This document shows, in pieces, positions 8,965 through 30,295 of a stretch of DNA of 64,000 bases. Numbering within the stretch: the stretch's first letter is position 1; every line of letters begins with the position of its first letter. Source of the stretch: a virus. A program made the position numbers and the translations under genes. The stretch is from positions 113,687 to 177,686 of the IMG/VR virus record IMGVR_UViG_3300050343_000215; one strand, 5' to 3'. The notes below the pieces were generated by a model that saw only the letters and a program-made list of their open reading frames with translations, did no database searches and had not been told where the DNA came from.

Positions 8965-9759
8965 TTAACCGACCATATCTAGTGGTGGTAACTCTGCTGC
9001 TAATTTAAATTCACCAAGAATAGTTTCAATTTCTTCTTGTGCATCTTCATAGAACTCTCTTCCATTTAGAGTTGTACCACCAGGAAGTGATACGTTCTTA
9101 AATTTAATAAGGTTTTGTCCCCACTGACGTTTGATCAGAGCGGTAAGATATCTCTTTAACCATACATCATTATAAATTTCTGCTGCATTATTAGGATCAA
9201 TCATTCTATAACAGTCAAGAATTAAATGTTGTCCTGCAGTAATATTACCCCAGTCAGTATCAATGTATAATCTATTTTCTCTTTTGTTAAATCTAATTGG
9301 TTTGAAGTTACCAATTACAAAATCAAGAGTTTCAAGATACTGCTTAACCATATAGTAGTTCAAGATTTCCATTGAACCAAAATTATAAAAGTCATTCAAG
9401 AATAACTGGTACTTCATACTAAAAATATTTCCTGATGTCGCTGATGAACTATTATCATAAGCATAGACTTGCGTTACTCCAAGTACATGCTCAGGAACAG
9501 TAATATAGTTATTCTGCTCCTTAAAATCAGTACCAGCAATTGCACTGTTCGCTTTCGCGTCAGTAATCATCTGTTCAGTAATTTCTACCTTTAAAAATGT
9601 TTTGATGCTTCCATCAAAATGACGCTCTTGGAAGAATTGAATAGCATCGTCCATGAGATCCTCAATCTGATCATCATCTACATTAATCTCTAGGACGGGA
9701 AAACCTAATTTCCTTAAGCAGTAGTCAACTAACTCCTGGCGTGTTGAGGGTCGTGCCAT
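8965..9759 (-). CDS. 13: Neck protein gp13
   Basis: Neck protein that binds the portal and recruits gp14 to close the packaged head. 264 residues (T4: 309). The start ARPSTRQELVDYCLRKLGFP is the usual one. The middle has KYQLFLNDFYNFGSMEILNY and RLYIDTDWGN, and the C-terminal part has WLKRYLTALIKRQWGQNL, all typical. It is first in the gp13-14-15-16 string. Its leader consists of a hairpin with a T-tract and an overlapping late promoter, and no Shine-Dalgarno is visible before the ATG. Confidence 0.94.
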   Translation of the reverse strand: MARPSTRQELVDYCLRKLGFPVLEINVDDDQIEDLMDDAIQFFQERHFDGSIKTFLKVEITEQMITDAKANSAIAGTDFKEQNNYITVPEHVLGVTQVYAYDNSSSATSGNIFSMKYQLFLNDFYNFGSMEILNYYMVKQYLETLDFVIGNFKPIRFNKRENRLYIDTDWGNITAGQHLILDCYRMIDPNNAAEIYNDVWLKRYLTALIKRQWGQNLIKFKNVSLPGGTTLNGREFYEDAQEEIETILGEFKLAAELPPLDMVG

Positions 9760-9763
9760 GAAT

Positions 9764-9794
9764 AAAAAAATACCCTAGTTTCCTAAAGGTATTT
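9764..9794 (-). terminator. Intrinsic terminator after the 153-residue gene
   Basis: On the minus strand AAATACC and GGTATTT form a 7-bp stem followed by a run of seven T. It lies between the stop of the 9803-10264 gene and the gp13 ATG, and its ascending arm is also part of a late promoter (9790-9797). Confidence 0.65.
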
Positions 9795-9797
9795 ATC
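9790..9797 (-). promoter_or_regulatory. T4-type late promoter for gp13
   Basis: Minus strand GATAAATA, 31 bases upstream of gp13. It overlaps the terminator stem, so late transcripts would start inside or beyond the hairpin. Confidence 0.6.
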
Positions 9798-26055: not shown

Positions 26056-26755
26056 ATTTTACTTTCAGAGCGATAGCAAAATTACTGATTGAAACCGTAG
26101 TATTTATAACTTCATACTGTATGATGTCTCCAGCGTTCAATTGCTTTGACCATCCAGTCAATGTAATATCAGTACTTTTTACATCACTATTTAATTGTGG
26201 TCCATTCCCACCACAAATTGATGCTACGTTAGGAAAATCATCAAAAGAACATTTCCTAATATCAAGTTCTAAATCTCCAATAGCATCGGCAACAATGACC
26301 CATGATTGGATAACTCCAGTAACATCAATAGTTAGGAAACCTTTGTTTCCTGTAGTCATTGGTCTAGAACCATTGTCTATAACATAATTAATAGTTCTAG
26401 TTAGATCAGCAGTATTTGCAAGTGCAATTCCAAAGAATGGTGTAACTGTACTTGCAGGAGCAGTAGCAAATGTAATTTCATTGCCTGATACTGTGTATCC
26501 CACTCCTGGTTGCAAAATAGTATTGTCAACGGAAATGATCAGTTGCTGGTCATTTAATGCATAATATTCTTCCCCAGAAACTGCTAACTGAAAAACTGTT
26601 TGTGCTCCATCAAATTGTGAACGCAAATCATCCAGAATTAAATTCTGGTATTGTATCCCTTTTGATGGTGCTTCATAATTTAAACCAATACTAAAATCAT
26701 TAGCAACACTTTGTGTGACATCAAAATTAGTAGTACTTACTTCGTAATTAGCCAC
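26051..26755 (-). CDS. Virion structural protein with fibre-type beta module
   Basis: 234 residues. After a short N-terminus comes LILDDLRSQFDGAQTVFQLA, then LIISVDNTILQPGVGYTVSG and ITFATAPAS. This FDG...F.L...LxVxxDxxxxxPGxxY module also occurs in gp7 of this phage, and it caps or joins tail-fibre parts in related phages. The C-terminal half (GWSKQLNAGDIIQYEVINTT) is beta-rich. It shares one base with the gene upstream (26755), so the two are coupled. Probably a tail-fibre-associated structural protein; the exact position is unknown. Confidence 0.75.
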   Translation of the reverse strand: MANYEVSTTNFDVTQSVANDFSIGLNYEAPSKGIQYQNLILDDLRSQFDGAQTVFQLAVSGEEYYALNDQQLIISVDNTILQPGVGYTVSGNEITFATAPASTVTPFFGIALANTADLTRTINYVIDNGSRPMTTGNKGFLTIDVTGVIQSWVIVADAIGDLELDIRKCSFDDFPNVASICGGNGPQLNSDVKSTDITLTGWSKQLNAGDIIQYEVINTTVSISNFAIALKVKL

Positions 26756-27093
26756 TATACTGTCACTCCTGGTGTTACTGTCGCAATTCCTTCAATAAAT
26801 CTGGTCTTTACTCCACTCGCAGAAGTCAAGACTAAATCATAAACATATCTTCTTGCTTTGAGGGCAGATGTAACTGTATCAGTCAAAGTAATTTTAATTA
26901 CTCCTTTACTTCTGTCAGTAAAAATTACTGCAAACGGTGTTGCAGTACTTGAAGTATAATAACTTGTCTTCAGTTTTGCCTCTGCGGTAAACCCCAAAAG
27001 ATTTACCGAAGCACCATCTGAGTTTTTGATAGTAAAGGTTGCTGAGAAGTCAGTACCCTGCTCTATCACTAAGTTAATTGTAATTGCAGACAT
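26755..27093 (-). CDS. Small tail-fibre-associated beta protein
   Basis: 112 residues: VIEQGTDFSATFTIKNSDGA, GFTAEAKLK, KGVIKITLTDTVTSALKARR, YVYDLVL, and GVKTRFIEGIATVTPGV. The pattern (start EQGTDFSATF, G-x-x-A-x-x-R/K, I-x-L-x-L, Y-x-Y-D-L, F-I-E-G-x-x-x-V-T-P-G-V-T) is that of a small Ig-like or BppU-N-like domain often found beside fibre genes in cyanophages. It starts inside a composite terminator/late-promoter region (27101-27135) and is coupled to the next gene. Likely an assembly or connector component. Confidence 0.75.
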   Translation of the reverse strand: MSAITINLVIEQGTDFSATFTIKNSDGASVNLLGFTAEAKLKTSYYTSSTATPFAVIFTDRSKGVIKITLTDTVTSALKARRYVYDLVLTSASGVKTRFIEGIATVTPGVTV

Positions 27094-27100
27094 GTACTAA

Positions 27101-27135
27101 AAAAGACCTTCCTTGTTATTTATAAGGAAGGTCTT
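27101..27135 (-). terminator. Terminator with a late promoter in its loop
   Basis: AAAGACCTTCCTT pairs with AAGGAAGGTCTTT (13 bp), followed by T-rich sequence on the minus strand. The loop contains TATAAATA. It ends the 68-residue gene. Confidence 0.88.
27117..27124 (-). promoter_or_regulatory. T4-type late promoter in the terminator loop
   Basis: Minus strand TATAAATA, 24 bases upstream of the ATG at 27093 and inside the hairpin loop of the terminator. Confidence 0.65.
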
Positions 27136-27140
27136 TAAAG

Positions 27141-27347
27141 TTATTCTGCCGCTACAGGTTCTGCTTCAACAGGTTCTTCGGTTTCAGCAGGAGGATCTAC
27201 TAGATCCAGAGCTTCAAGAGCACCTTTGAGTTTAAGTGCAAGTTCTCGTTTTGCCACGACCTGCGCCTCAAGATTTTTAATTTCAGAAATTGCAGTTTCA
27301 AGTTGGGTTGTAAAGTTTTCGCGCAGTGCGCTTGGTTCAACAGACAT
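27141..27347 (-). CDS. Small coiled-coil protein, independent unit
   Basis: 68 residues. Residues 8-50 (TTQLETAISEIKNLEAQVVA, then KRELALKLKGALEALDLV) show heptad-like spacing and predict a coiled coil. The last 17 residues are an acidic, Pro-rich tail (VDPPAETEEPVEAEPVAAE). No family recognised. It has a perfect consensus sigma70 promoter upstream and its own strong terminator downstream, in the middle of late tail genes. It is therefore probably expressed early or constitutively, apart from its neighbours. An assembly chaperone or scaffolding role is conceivable, but nothing shows it. Confidence 0.78.
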   Translation of the reverse strand: MSVEPSALRENFTTQLETAISEIKNLEAQVVAKRELALKLKGALEALDLVDPPAETEEPVEAEPVAAE

Positions 27348-27370
27348 GGTATTACTTAGTTTCAGTTGTT

Positions 27371-27399
27371 ATTATAGTACAATTTATTTAGTGTGTCAA
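27371..27399 (-). promoter_or_regulatory. Consensus sigma70 promoter
   Basis: Minus strand TTGACA (27394-27399), 17-base spacer, TATAAT (27371-27376). Perfect in both boxes, 24 bases upstream of the ATG at 27347, and overlapping the stop of the 299-residue gene. Confidence 0.85.
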
Positions 27400-28295
27400 G
27401 ACAGGTCCCATCCTGTTTGACCATTAGCATTATCTTTGAGCAAATAACCATCTACCATAAAACCTTCAATGTAAGTTCTTCCACCACTACCATTATTCTG
27501 GATTGTTATCTGAGTAAGATTTCCTGCTTGCTCAAATCTATGTGATGATCCTGTACTAGATGTATAAGTTGTTCCGTCTATAGTGACAGTACAAGTTGAA
27601 TTATATCCATCTTCTGAAAATACTCTAACGAAATTAGTTACAGTAATACTAAGAGTAAGGGTGCATAAAACTTGGTTTCCACCTGTTCTTGCCCTTGGCG
27701 AAGTTTGCAAATATCCATTAAAAGCATTTGAAGCAGCTTGATCAAAACCTCCAGTTAAACTATTACTCCATACGGTTCCATCATTAGGACTAGTGGAAGT
27801 CATGAATCTTTCTCCTGCTTGCAGAAGAGTTCCACAAGCACTTACACCTCCAGGAGAACTACCATCTGCTGGCCATGAACCAGAAGTTTGGTTATGCATT
27901 ACACCACGCCATGCTTCAGTCCAATCACTATTATTATCACTACGCTCAACTTTATATGAGATAGATCTAATACTACCAGAAAATACTGAATCTACAAATA
28001 AATGTGTGAAGGAAATTGCCGAACCATGATCATATGTCTCTGTTGTGTTTCCACCAATAATAGTTCCACTGTCACTACAGTTTGAACTAGTATATGTTTT
28101 AAACCATGTAATATTTGATGAACTATCACTAGTAGAAAATCCAAAACGCGCAGCTCTAGGAGCATGGTCATTATAAGGATTGGATCCACCAGTGGCACCA
28201 GTGGTCAATCTCCAATAACGATGTGAGCTAGTACCAAAATCACCACCACCACCAGCAGCAGCACCACCATAACCAAGTAACATTTGTTGCATCAT
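27396..28295 (-). CDS. Tail-fibre-associated adhesin-like protein
   Basis: 299 residues. It starts MMQQMLLGYGGAAAGGGGDF, a Gly-rich cyanophage-type leader, then HRYWRLTTGATGGSNPYNDH, which recalls the start of discoidin (F5/8 type C)-like sugar-binding domains. The middle has ISYKVERSDNNSDWTEAWRG; the C-terminal part is a beta domain with FVRVFSEDGYNSTCTVTIDG and ITIQNNGSGGRTYIEGF, seen in many phage adhesins. It shares one base with the tail-fibre gene upstream, so it is coupled to it. Probably a receptor-binding or fibre-tip protein; carbohydrate binding is inferred. Confidence 0.75.
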   Translation of the reverse strand: MMQQMLLGYGGAAAGGGGDFGTSSHRYWRLTTGATGGSNPYNDHAPRAARFGFSTSDSSSNITWFKTYTSSNCSDSGTIIGGNTTETYDHGSAISFTHLFVDSVFSGSIRSISYKVERSDNNSDWTEAWRGVMHNQTSGSWPADGSSPGGVSACGTLLQAGERFMTSTSPNDGTVWSNSLTGGFDQAASNAFNGYLQTSPRARTGGNQVLCTLTLSITVTNFVRVFSEDGYNSTCTVTIDGTTYTSSTGSSHRFEQAGNLTQITIQNNGSGGRTYIEGFMVDGYLLKDNANGQTGWDLS

Positions 28296-30295
28296 TAGCT
28301 CAGACCTCCACCAGAAATATAGGCGACATTTGTTGCAATAAAGACAAGAGTTGCTACTCCTCTAGCTGCTAATGTTTTATCACTATCCGCCCCATCAGCG
28401 GTATTATATAATGTAAATGAACTTCGTGTGATTGTCATACTAGTTGCAGAATTATTCATAATAGTAATCATATCACCAGCTGAAACTGTACTAATGTCAG
28501 CAACAGTTATATTTCCGCCAGTTCTAACAACCATTTTCCCAATATCACTTCCAATCAAAGTATAGTCGCTAGTGATTGGATTGTTGAGTCCAAGTCTTCT
28601 CAGTGGACCGAGTGAGTCACTGATTGAGCCAGCAAATATGGCGCTGCCGTCCTCATTCAGGTCAATTGTGTATGCAGTATCTTCCTTGTTTCTAATAAAT
28701 ACACCGCTACCAATACCGCCTTTGACAAGCACATTAGCTTTAACAGTCAGATCACCCTCAAATGTGGCGGTGCCATATGCACCCTGTAGGTCAATTTTAG
28801 TCGTAGTTCCATCACCTAAAATCAACCTTGAGGATGAAGTCTCTTTGTATAACCCTCCCAGGTTTGTGCTGCCAGCATTGACCTGGAATGCATAGGTATC
28901 GTCGGTAGGGTTGTTTAGAATAGTACCCGCAAATGTGCCTGTGCCGTTTACACTAAGACCAATATTAGTTTCCCACAATCCACTGGTATTATTGTAAGTA
29001 ATCGTCTTATCAGTAGCTCCTTTCAGTGTAATACCACCACCATCTGCTGTGGTATCAGAAGGAGATGATACATTACCAAGTTCAATGTTCTTATCTTCTA
29101 CGGTTAAAGTAGTTGAGTCAATGGTGGTCGTAGTTCCTGAAATATCAACGTTACCTACAACATAAAGATCTTTCCAGATAACAACTCTTTCATTTCCAGT
29201 ATCAGTTCTAAATTGCAAGTAATCAGTAGTACTTCCATTTTTTCTAAAACTTAAAGAATTTTGTAAATTACTTGGAAAGTAAATGTAATTTTCTATTGCA
29301 TTTGAAAATCGTAAATGGTTTTTTGCAACTATTTTAGTATTAACTGTTGTTGTGCCGCTACCACTAGCATTTCCAATTATAACATCATTATTATTGATTA
29401 AAAGATTAAATGTATTTGCTGATGAAAGAAGTTCCCCACCATTAACCGCAATCTTACCAGAGCAAGCAAGGTCATCACTGAGAATATTGAAGTTAGTATT
29501 TCCACCTCCACCAGAAACACCCATGTTGATGGTAGTTGCTGCACCAAACGCATTAATCTGTGTTGCTACTGTATTGAAAAGAGCTTGTGTAGTCTCTGAT
29601 CCAACAATCGTAGGATTTCTAAGTGTCAGAGTTCCTGTAGTTGCACCAAGACGAATGTCAGTACCAGCACCAAATGCCTCTACAGTTGTTGCATAATCAT
29701 CAAATAAATCAACTGTAGCTTGAGTACTAGGAACTCTAACGTCACCTGAGTCTACCTGAAGATATCCTGTAAATGTTGAGTTTTCATCAACAGTCAGTGT
29801 ATCAATGCTAGCAGTACCATCAATCCAAATATTATTCCACTGTTTTGTTGCAGAACCTAAGTTATAGTTTGCAGTACTATCTGGAACAATACTAGATGTA
29901 AGTTCGGCATTAAATACGATGTTATCAGTATTAAGATCACCAAATGTTAGTGTGCCACCTGATGCAGCACCAGCTCTAAATGTAATATCGCCGTCTACTT
30001 CTAAATCACCACTAATTGATAAACTACTAGTAAGACCAATCTTACTTGCATTTACCTTGTAAAAACCTTGTCCAGAATCCCAAAATAAACTTGGCGATGC
30101 AAACGTACCAGGATCCATCCCATGGGTCTGGTTGATTAAATCAACATCACCATTGACAATTTCATTGATGCCATTTACGAGCACATTCGTTGGCGTTAAT
30201 AACGTTGCTGCATCACCAACATCAGTACCGATGAGGTTAACCATCTGACGCTGTTGCTCAAACGTAAAAGTTGTAAGGACTTCTCTAATTGCCAT
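28295..30295 (-). CDS. Tail fibre protein
   Basis: 666 residues. The start AIREVLTTFTFEQQRQMVNL is usual for cyanophage fibres. From about residue 90 it contains the fibre repeat LEVDGDITFRAG, GTLTFGDLNTDNIVFNAELT, SIVPDSTANYNLGSATKQW, NNIWIDGTASIDTL, a triple-beta shaft pattern found in host-range fibres. The C-terminal 90 residues form a cap-like domain (DYTLIGSDIGKMVVRTGGNI, then ITIMNNSATSMTITRS). No intramolecular chaperone is visible. Its ATG overlaps the 67-residue gene upstream by 11 bases, and it is coupled to the adhesin downstream. Confidence 0.85.
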   Translation of the reverse strand: MAIREVLTTFTFEQQRQMVNLIGTDVGDAATLLTPTNVLVNGINEIVNGDVDLINQTHGMDPGTFASPSLFWDSGQGFYKVNASKIGLTSSLSISGDLEVDGDITFRAGAASGGTLTFGDLNTDNIVFNAELTSSIVPDSTANYNLGSATKQWNNIWIDGTASIDTLTVDENSTFTGYLQVDSGDVRVPSTQATVDLFDDYATTVEAFGAGTDIRLGATTGTLTLRNPTIVGSETTQALFNTVATQINAFGAATTINMGVSGGGGNTNFNILSDDLACSGKIAVNGGELLSSANTFNLLINNNDVIIGNASGSGTTTVNTKIVAKNHLRFSNAIENYIYFPSNLQNSLSFRKNGSTTDYLQFRTDTGNERVVIWKDLYVVGNVDISGTTTTIDSTTLTVEDKNIELGNVSSPSDTTADGGGITLKGATDKTITYNNTSGLWETNIGLSVNGTGTFAGTILNNPTDDTYAFQVNAGSTNLGGLYKETSSSRLILGDGTTTKIDLQGAYGTATFEGDLTVKANVLVKGGIGSGVFIRNKEDTAYTIDLNEDGSAIFAGSISDSLGPLRRLGLNNPITSDYTLIGSDIGKMVVRTGGNITVADISTVSAGDMITIMNNSATSMTITRSSFTLYNTADGADSDKTLAARGVATLVFIATNVAYISGGGLS

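Follow-up and report, generated by a model that had tools for sequence, protein, structure and literature searches.

A terminator-like hairpin with a nested late promoter consensus follows a small phrog_580 gene in a marine T4-like cyanophage

The locus described here lies on the minus strand of a 64,000-nucleotide stretch of viral DNA (hereafter the window; positions 113,687 to 177,686 of IMG/VR record IMGVR_UViG_3300050343_000215). The full record comprises 177,686 bases, in which genes for gp13, gp14, gp15, terminase, sheath and baseplate proteins were recognized, and the closest matches of the encoded proteins fall mostly among Synechococcus and Prochlorococcus phages; the source is a marine T4-like phage of cyanobacteria, kin to the cyanomyoviruses. 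The relevant features are these:

27371–27399, minus strand: consensus sigma70-type promoter, TTGACA-N17-TATAAT, with CTAAATA at 27391–27385 within the spacer
27141–27347, minus strand: gene for a small, coiled-coil-like 68-residue protein of phrog_580 (PHROG E 2.2e-16)
27102–27136, minus strand: composite hairpin, from sequence and fold (5′ arm 27136–27124, loop 27123–27115, 3′ arm 27114–27102)
27117–27124, minus strand: late promoter consensus TATAAATA, spanning the stem-loop border
27111, minus strand: predicted +1 of the late transcript
27099–27104, minus strand: terminator T-run of six T, the first three within the 3′ arm
26755–27093, minus strand: gene for a 112-residue protein resembling L-shaped tail fibre assembly proteins (phrog_1084, 1.7e-27; phrog_3304, 6e-23)
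9768–9796, minus strand: gp13 leader element of the "arm" class (leader 9796–9759), ATAAATA at 9796–9790 overlapping its 5′ arm
8965–9759, minus strand: gp13 neck protein gene (head-tail adaptor Ad2; phrog_211, 2e-46)

The gene for the 112-residue protein (ATG at 27093) is the first behind the nested late promoter; the match of its product to Pfam LtfC falls under the family cut-off. The coiled-coil character of the 68-residue protein was judged by eye; a Pfam search gave no match to it and tblastn against a phage collection at E 0.001 returned no record, and a profile search placed relatives in S-PM2, S-CAM4 and S-RIM32. At the DNA level, the phage collection yielded no homolog of 26700–28300; the 61-base junction, used as a query, matched 169 records, of which those listed are short hits of E about 5 in staphylococcal phages. 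A known RNA family was rejected on an Rfam scan of 26900–27500, which produced a single unrelated match (E 0.11, under the gathering score).

The hairpin starts 4 nt past the stop codon of the 68-residue gene (gene end 27141) and reads AAAGACCTTCCTT-ATAAATAAC-AAGGAAGGTCTTT on the minus strand, followed by TTT. Its stem of 13 bp, five of them G-C and none mismatched, encloses a 9-nt loop and stands directly before the T-run, so that the stable G-C-containing stem and T tract expected of an intrinsic terminator are both present. The calculated folding energy of the 71-nt region is −25.6 kcal/mol; shuffled versions average −9.3 (sd 2.5), which puts the region at z −6.4, and 0 of 200 shuffles equal it. 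A first-pass annotation had proposed that a terminator with a 13-bp stem and T-run ends the 68-residue gene, which is borne out at the level of a terminator-like hairpin, with coordinates corrected by one base. It had also placed the T4 late consensus inside the hairpin ahead of the next gene, which is right, and wholly within the loop, which is not: the first T of TATAAATA is the final base of the 5′ arm, where it is paired and closes the stem.

Across the whole genome, two hairpins with a mismatch-free stem (at least 9 bp, at least three G-C) carry TAAATA in the loop, compared with a mean of 0.03 and a largest count of 1 in 60 first-order random genomes; on this excess and the fold z of −6.4, we reject a chance origin of the composite. 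The other genomic case (L060, about 18423, minus strand) is a 10-bp hairpin, GCAGATGTAT-CTGTAA-ATACATCTGC, containing TAAATA, with neither a T-run nor a gene start behind it. Of the 164 NTAAATA sites tested genome-wide, just the one at 27123 combines a strong hairpin with a gene immediately downstream, and the exact composite is single-copy in its own genome.

These counts do not sustain the earlier suggestion that the phage reuses the loop design, nor does the gp13 leader, which had been read as a second such composite. That leader pairs AAATACC with GGTATTT ahead of a T-run and carries its late promoter in the 5′ arm, and its fold reaches a z of only −1.6; it is kindred in idea and distinct in build from the loop composite. 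Among the close relatives listed, most keep it as AAATACCTCTAG-GAAA-CTAGGGGTATTT or in the window's near-identical form. The arm class was seen at gp13 in L065–L098, L411, L412, L427, L434 and L444, with 5′ flanks unrelated among many of the relatives. Recurrence of the loop design is found across phages, where it follows the upstream phrog_580 family.

Both sequence hallmarks of T4-type late transcription, a TATAAATA-like box near a late gene and a gp55-family sigma gene, are found here. A gene for a gp55-like late sigma factor is present in the genome (L064:6055–6531, phrog_234, E 6e-66), and the gene for the major head protein has TATAAATAA 42 nt ahead of it. Among 131 ORFs of at least 100 aa, [AC]TAAATA occurs between −75 and −8 in 25, versus two for the reverse complement (a further control, ATAAAT[AC], with 20 of 131, was set aside because it overlaps the motif itself). 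The TATAAATA 8-mer is not enriched in the window (six seen, 5.2 expected); all six copies lie on the minus strand, which is also the strand that encodes the late genes.

Since the T4 late consensus box spans −13 to −6, as stated in a passage of PMC1524935, the predicted late start falls at 27111, inside the 3′ arm. The resulting RNA would begin 5′-GAAGGUCUUUUUUAGUACAUG, lack the 5′ arm altogether and have a leader of 18 nt, GAAGGUCUUUUUUAGUAC, before the AUG. Within the 3′ arm, AAGGAAGG ends 13 nt from the AUG, which itself lies outside the helix; a gap of 13 nt between a Shine-Dalgarno-like G-run and the start codon is longer than usual. Calculated over −20 to +3 of the 112-residue gene, the mean probability of being unpaired is 0.21 in a read-through RNA versus 0.36 in the predicted late RNA, and this gain in accessibility, modest for the window gene, is absent in L328 and mixed or reversed in several other cases.

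The arrangement is conserved among near relatives. When these were searched for a hairpin with ATAAATA in its loop, as the first-pass annotation had advised, all 35 close IMG/VR loci (77–100% protein identity; hairpins read by eye upstream of the 112-residue gene) were found to carry it, with stem variants that include a GATC/GGTC wobble and CTTCTT/AAGAAG. The hairpin is absent from all of the remaining 22 loci (54% identity or less); a phrog_580 gene lies upstream in three of these (L037–L039) and other genes in the rest. A pattern search added four contigs with the composite (L172, L176, L177 and L182), and a profile scan recovered lineages in which gene order is kept and the stems differ, CCCTTCGTAT (L334/L335) and CCCCTTGCTA (L328–L331); further stems, CCCCCTTC (L134/L136) and ACCCTTCC (L131/L133), came from loci outside that scan. 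No match was obtained in 16 cultured records with a pattern that set CTAAATA and a T-run a single fixed distance apart. In S-PM2 (near record position 66785–66818), S-CAM4 and S-RIM32 the loop composite precedes gp13 rather than the tail-fibre-assembly gene, and here too a phrog_580 relative lies upstream of it (S-PM2p095 in S-PM2).

A phrog_580 profile built from 11 family members (ten of them drawn from composite junctions, which biases it) located 66 distinct junctions in the loci analysed. TAAATA lies in an uninterrupted hairpin loop at 29 of the 34 before a tail-fibre-assembly gene and at 20 of the 24 before gp13, where two of the four non-scoring junctions (L428 and L436) do have the hairpin, with a mismatch; the eight before other or no recognized genes show no loop composite. 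All 49 scoring junctions have six or seven T within 8 nt. Taking gp13 leaders as the starting point instead (80 loci less five truncated and one with too short a leader, leaving 74), all 19 with phrog_580 upstream score as loop composites, compared with 12 of 55 that have other upstream genes; these 12 are mostly weak folds, L406 being a clear exception. Because the loop arrangement tracks phrog_580 at both types of junction, what the composite accompanies is the 3′ end of phrog_580 and not either downstream gene. Exceptions to this link are L037–L039, where phrog_580 adjoins the tail-fibre-assembly gene without a hairpin, L139, L441, S-CAM1 and S-CAM3, the last two lacking TAAATA at the phrog_580 junction, and Syn9 and P-RSM4 with their tandem version.

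Selection appears to maintain the hairpin itself, to judge from covariation among eleven gp13 composites aligned without gaps around TAAATA. We limited this comparison to the ungapped gp13 group because a MAFFT alignment of 16 composites, whose loop lengths differ, mis-set the arms. In the 13-bp helix, 93% of cells are paired and five of the 13 pairs have changed on both sides, with clear compensations (C-G/U-A/A-U at one pair, G-C/C-G at another). The covariation score of 0.303 compares with 0.143 (sd 0.022) for shuffled sets and 0.039–0.108 for slid versions; that none of 500 shuffles reaches it is a count and not a probability, the sequences being related.

We also surveyed terminator loops in 13 of 16 records, all but W05, W06 and W08 (our own phage and 12 cultured ones, three of them partly covered). 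TAAATA lies at the loop in eight of 345 terminator-like hairpins, and each other permutation of its letters in four at most; in T4, none of 36 terminator-like hairpins has TAAATA in the loop. Over all loci, a redundant set, 26 of 497 distinct terminators have a TAAATA loop, representing 15 stem cores that are partly related by descent. Tandem arrangements, in which a terminator is followed by a late promoter, number three in T4 and five in 120 kb of S-SRM01. A T-run directly or closely before TATAAATA is common: L063:6166 (own phage), L233 and L234 (S-PM2), L308–L313 (S-SRM01), and L303, L305 and L306 (T4). A separate loop composite, CCTCCTCTA-AATA-TAGGGGAGG, unlinked to phrog_580, precedes a 407/360-residue gene near MazG in S-CAM1 (L246:4552) and S-CAM3 (L256:5809); in it, GGAGG ends 9 nt before the ATG.

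Some 235 bp upstream, beyond the 68-residue gene, stands the sigma70-type promoter, which has one copy in the window; there the stop codon of the upstream 299-residue gene is the TGA inside TTGACA. Of the 33 close loci that could be assessed, 25 have the module (a TTGAC-type −35, N17 and TATAAT before the 68-residue gene); the other eight lack it and keep the composite, and two truncated loci were excluded. Its identity is 0.90–1.00, versus a mean of 0.25–0.40 in the 60 bases directly 5′ (19 distinct contexts), and this conservation beside an unrelated flank marks the module as the edge of an exchanged block. With its fixed CTAAATAA spacer and its sharp 5′ edge in phages that are alike in other respects, it resembles a module exchange point. 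ACTAAATAA in the spacer is a possible overlapping late box.

We propose that the composite is a one-way insulator that stops transcription and restarts it, a reading to which we give a probability of about 0.6; its termination, start site and effect on translation we infer from sequence. RNA arriving from upstream (begun at the sigma70-type or late promoter of the 68-residue gene, or by read-through) would carry both arms, fold the 13-bp hairpin before the U-run and terminate, yielding a short monocistronic phrog_580 mRNA. Late in infection, a gp55-type polymerase would bind TATAAATA in the same DNA and start at about 27111 in the 3′ arm; its RNA, missing the 5′ arm, would form no hairpin and continue into the tail-fibre-assembly operon. 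In RNA that did read through, pairing would persist in the 3′ arm and in the stretch leading up to the AUG, and poor translation of the next gene would be expected. Several other lineages have a late-type box upstream of phrog_580 itself, which suggests that the ancestral use may be a short, separate phrog_580 mRNA; in the window's lineage, the sigma70-type promoter would add a need to exclude early RNA from the tail genes. Observed directly are the hairpin with its T-run, the promoter consensus and the gene for a late sigma factor, and, among relatives, the conservation, the covariation and the linkage to phrog_580. Against the proposal stand the position of the hairpin, 4 nt past the stop codon, where a terminating ribosome could disturb it (PMC4824070), the phrog_580 junctions without a hairpin (L037–L039) or without TAAATA (S-CAM1, S-CAM3), the long gap between the G-run and the AUG, and the modest gain in accessibility. 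Retention of the composite at the 8 of 33 loci that lack the sigma70-type module further indicates that insulating late from early transcription is not its sole purpose.

The hairpin could mainly serve translation, hiding the ribosome-binding region of the next gene while late RNA, started past the 5′ arm, is translated, with termination incidental. Such a switch has precedent, since passages of PMC3014915 and PMC2988022 describe T4 e, soc, 49 and I-TevI as working in this way, and in the T4 e leader the loop contains TATAAATA and the 3′ arm AGGAGGT. The arms of the loop composites point in the same direction: 13 of the 15 cores, all 13 preceding a gene of at least 110 aa, combine a 5′ arm rich in C with a 3′ arm rich in G, compared with 207 of 471 other terminators (the other two cores are opposite). 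Spacing divides the cases. The last G of the 3′ arm lies 7 nt from the AUG in L134/L136 and 10 nt in L131/L133, both groups with an interrupted T-run, which weakens termination as a universal function and makes a ribosome-site role plausible mainly there; in the window and most other composites, however, the distance is 13–19 nt. The T-rich tract at 49 of 49 junctions would be needless for a hairpin that only hides a ribosome-binding site, and the accessibility differences are small or, in several cases, reversed. We regard a switch that is chiefly translational as unlikely, and a T4 e-like translational contribution as likely in some lineages.

It is also conceivable, with a lower probability, that the phrog_580 terminator and the late promoter of the next operon merely share space and are not functionally coupled. 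Tandem terminators and late promoters are common in the same phages and in T4, and Syn9 and P-RSM4 have the tandem version behind a weak phrog_580 relative; but were compactness all, that layout would do equally well, and the loop location has been kept through at least six different stems, which covary around a constant TAAATA. Most improbable in our estimation is an attenuator coupled to translation, in which a ribosome ending the phrog_580 frame blocks folding of the hairpin and the level of translation sets read-through. The 4 nt that separate stop codon and hairpin, both in the window and in S-PM2, would suit it, and according to PMC4824070 termination is repressed almost completely at a terminator several base pairs behind a gene; yet the gap varies (17 nt in L121), and neither a leader peptide nor an alternative structure was seen.

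Returning to the insulator, we tentatively extend it, at slightly below even odds, to a portable cassette of phrog_580 and a terminator with nested late promoter that acts as a one-way valve ahead of late operons. Such a valve would stop each arriving polymerase and be transparent only to one starting inside it, so that the cassette could sit ahead of a late operon without upsetting that operon; phrog_580 with the nested element does occur ahead of two such operons, that of gp13 and that of tail-fibre assembly, in distinct lineages of cyanophages. If the insulator proposal is true, T4-like marine cyanophages separate neighbouring transcripts in some 35 bases by nesting the signal to restart within the signal to stop, and the element is a natural insulator of compact design. 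The tie to the small phrog_580 gene suggests that its mRNA must stay monocistronic, which is testable in the culturable S-PM2.

In the literature open in full text without subscription, we found no report of a terminator whose loop holds a late promoter; three known arrangements come closest. Promoter-early stem-loops (PeSLs), which Arbiol in 2010 and Comeau in 2014 are said to have described, reportedly set an early sigma70-type promoter beside a terminator stem-loop. PeSL cassettes of T4-like phages are mentioned in PMC4503421. Like the present element, they reportedly join a terminator stem-loop and a promoter within a short span between genes and are linked to module exchange. Here, by contrast, the nested promoter is of the late type and the early-type promoter lies on the far side of the 68-residue gene; no early promoter is joined to the stem-loop, and the exact composite occurs once in the phage's own genome, not in the repeated homologous copies that would mediate module exchange. 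The tandem layout of T4 and several cyanophages likewise ends one transcript and restarts late transcription, but its promoter follows the T-run and its late RNA never contains either arm; in the relevant passages of cyanophage surveys (PMC2984593, PMC3037559), late boxes and terminators are handled separately. Closest in principle are the hairpins of T4 e, soc, 49, I-TevI and others, within which late promoters lie and ribosome-binding sites are hidden. As in these, and in segB and Aeh1 mobE so far as the same sources describe them, the late consensus sits in a hairpin and late RNA (here by prediction) starts past the 5′ arm and cannot form that hairpin; T4 e in particular carries TATAAATA in its loop, and its 3′ arm, rich in G, holds the Shine-Dalgarno sequence. 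Unlike them, the composite has a T-run and is terminator-like, has its base about 6–18 nt from the AUG, and stands directly behind the stop codon of another gene. What is new relative to both T4 e-type hairpins and PeSLs is that the hairpin itself is terminator-like and tied to phrog_580, which, if the insulator proposal is true, would carry the principle known from T4 gene e, where a ribosome site is hidden, over to the ending of transcription.
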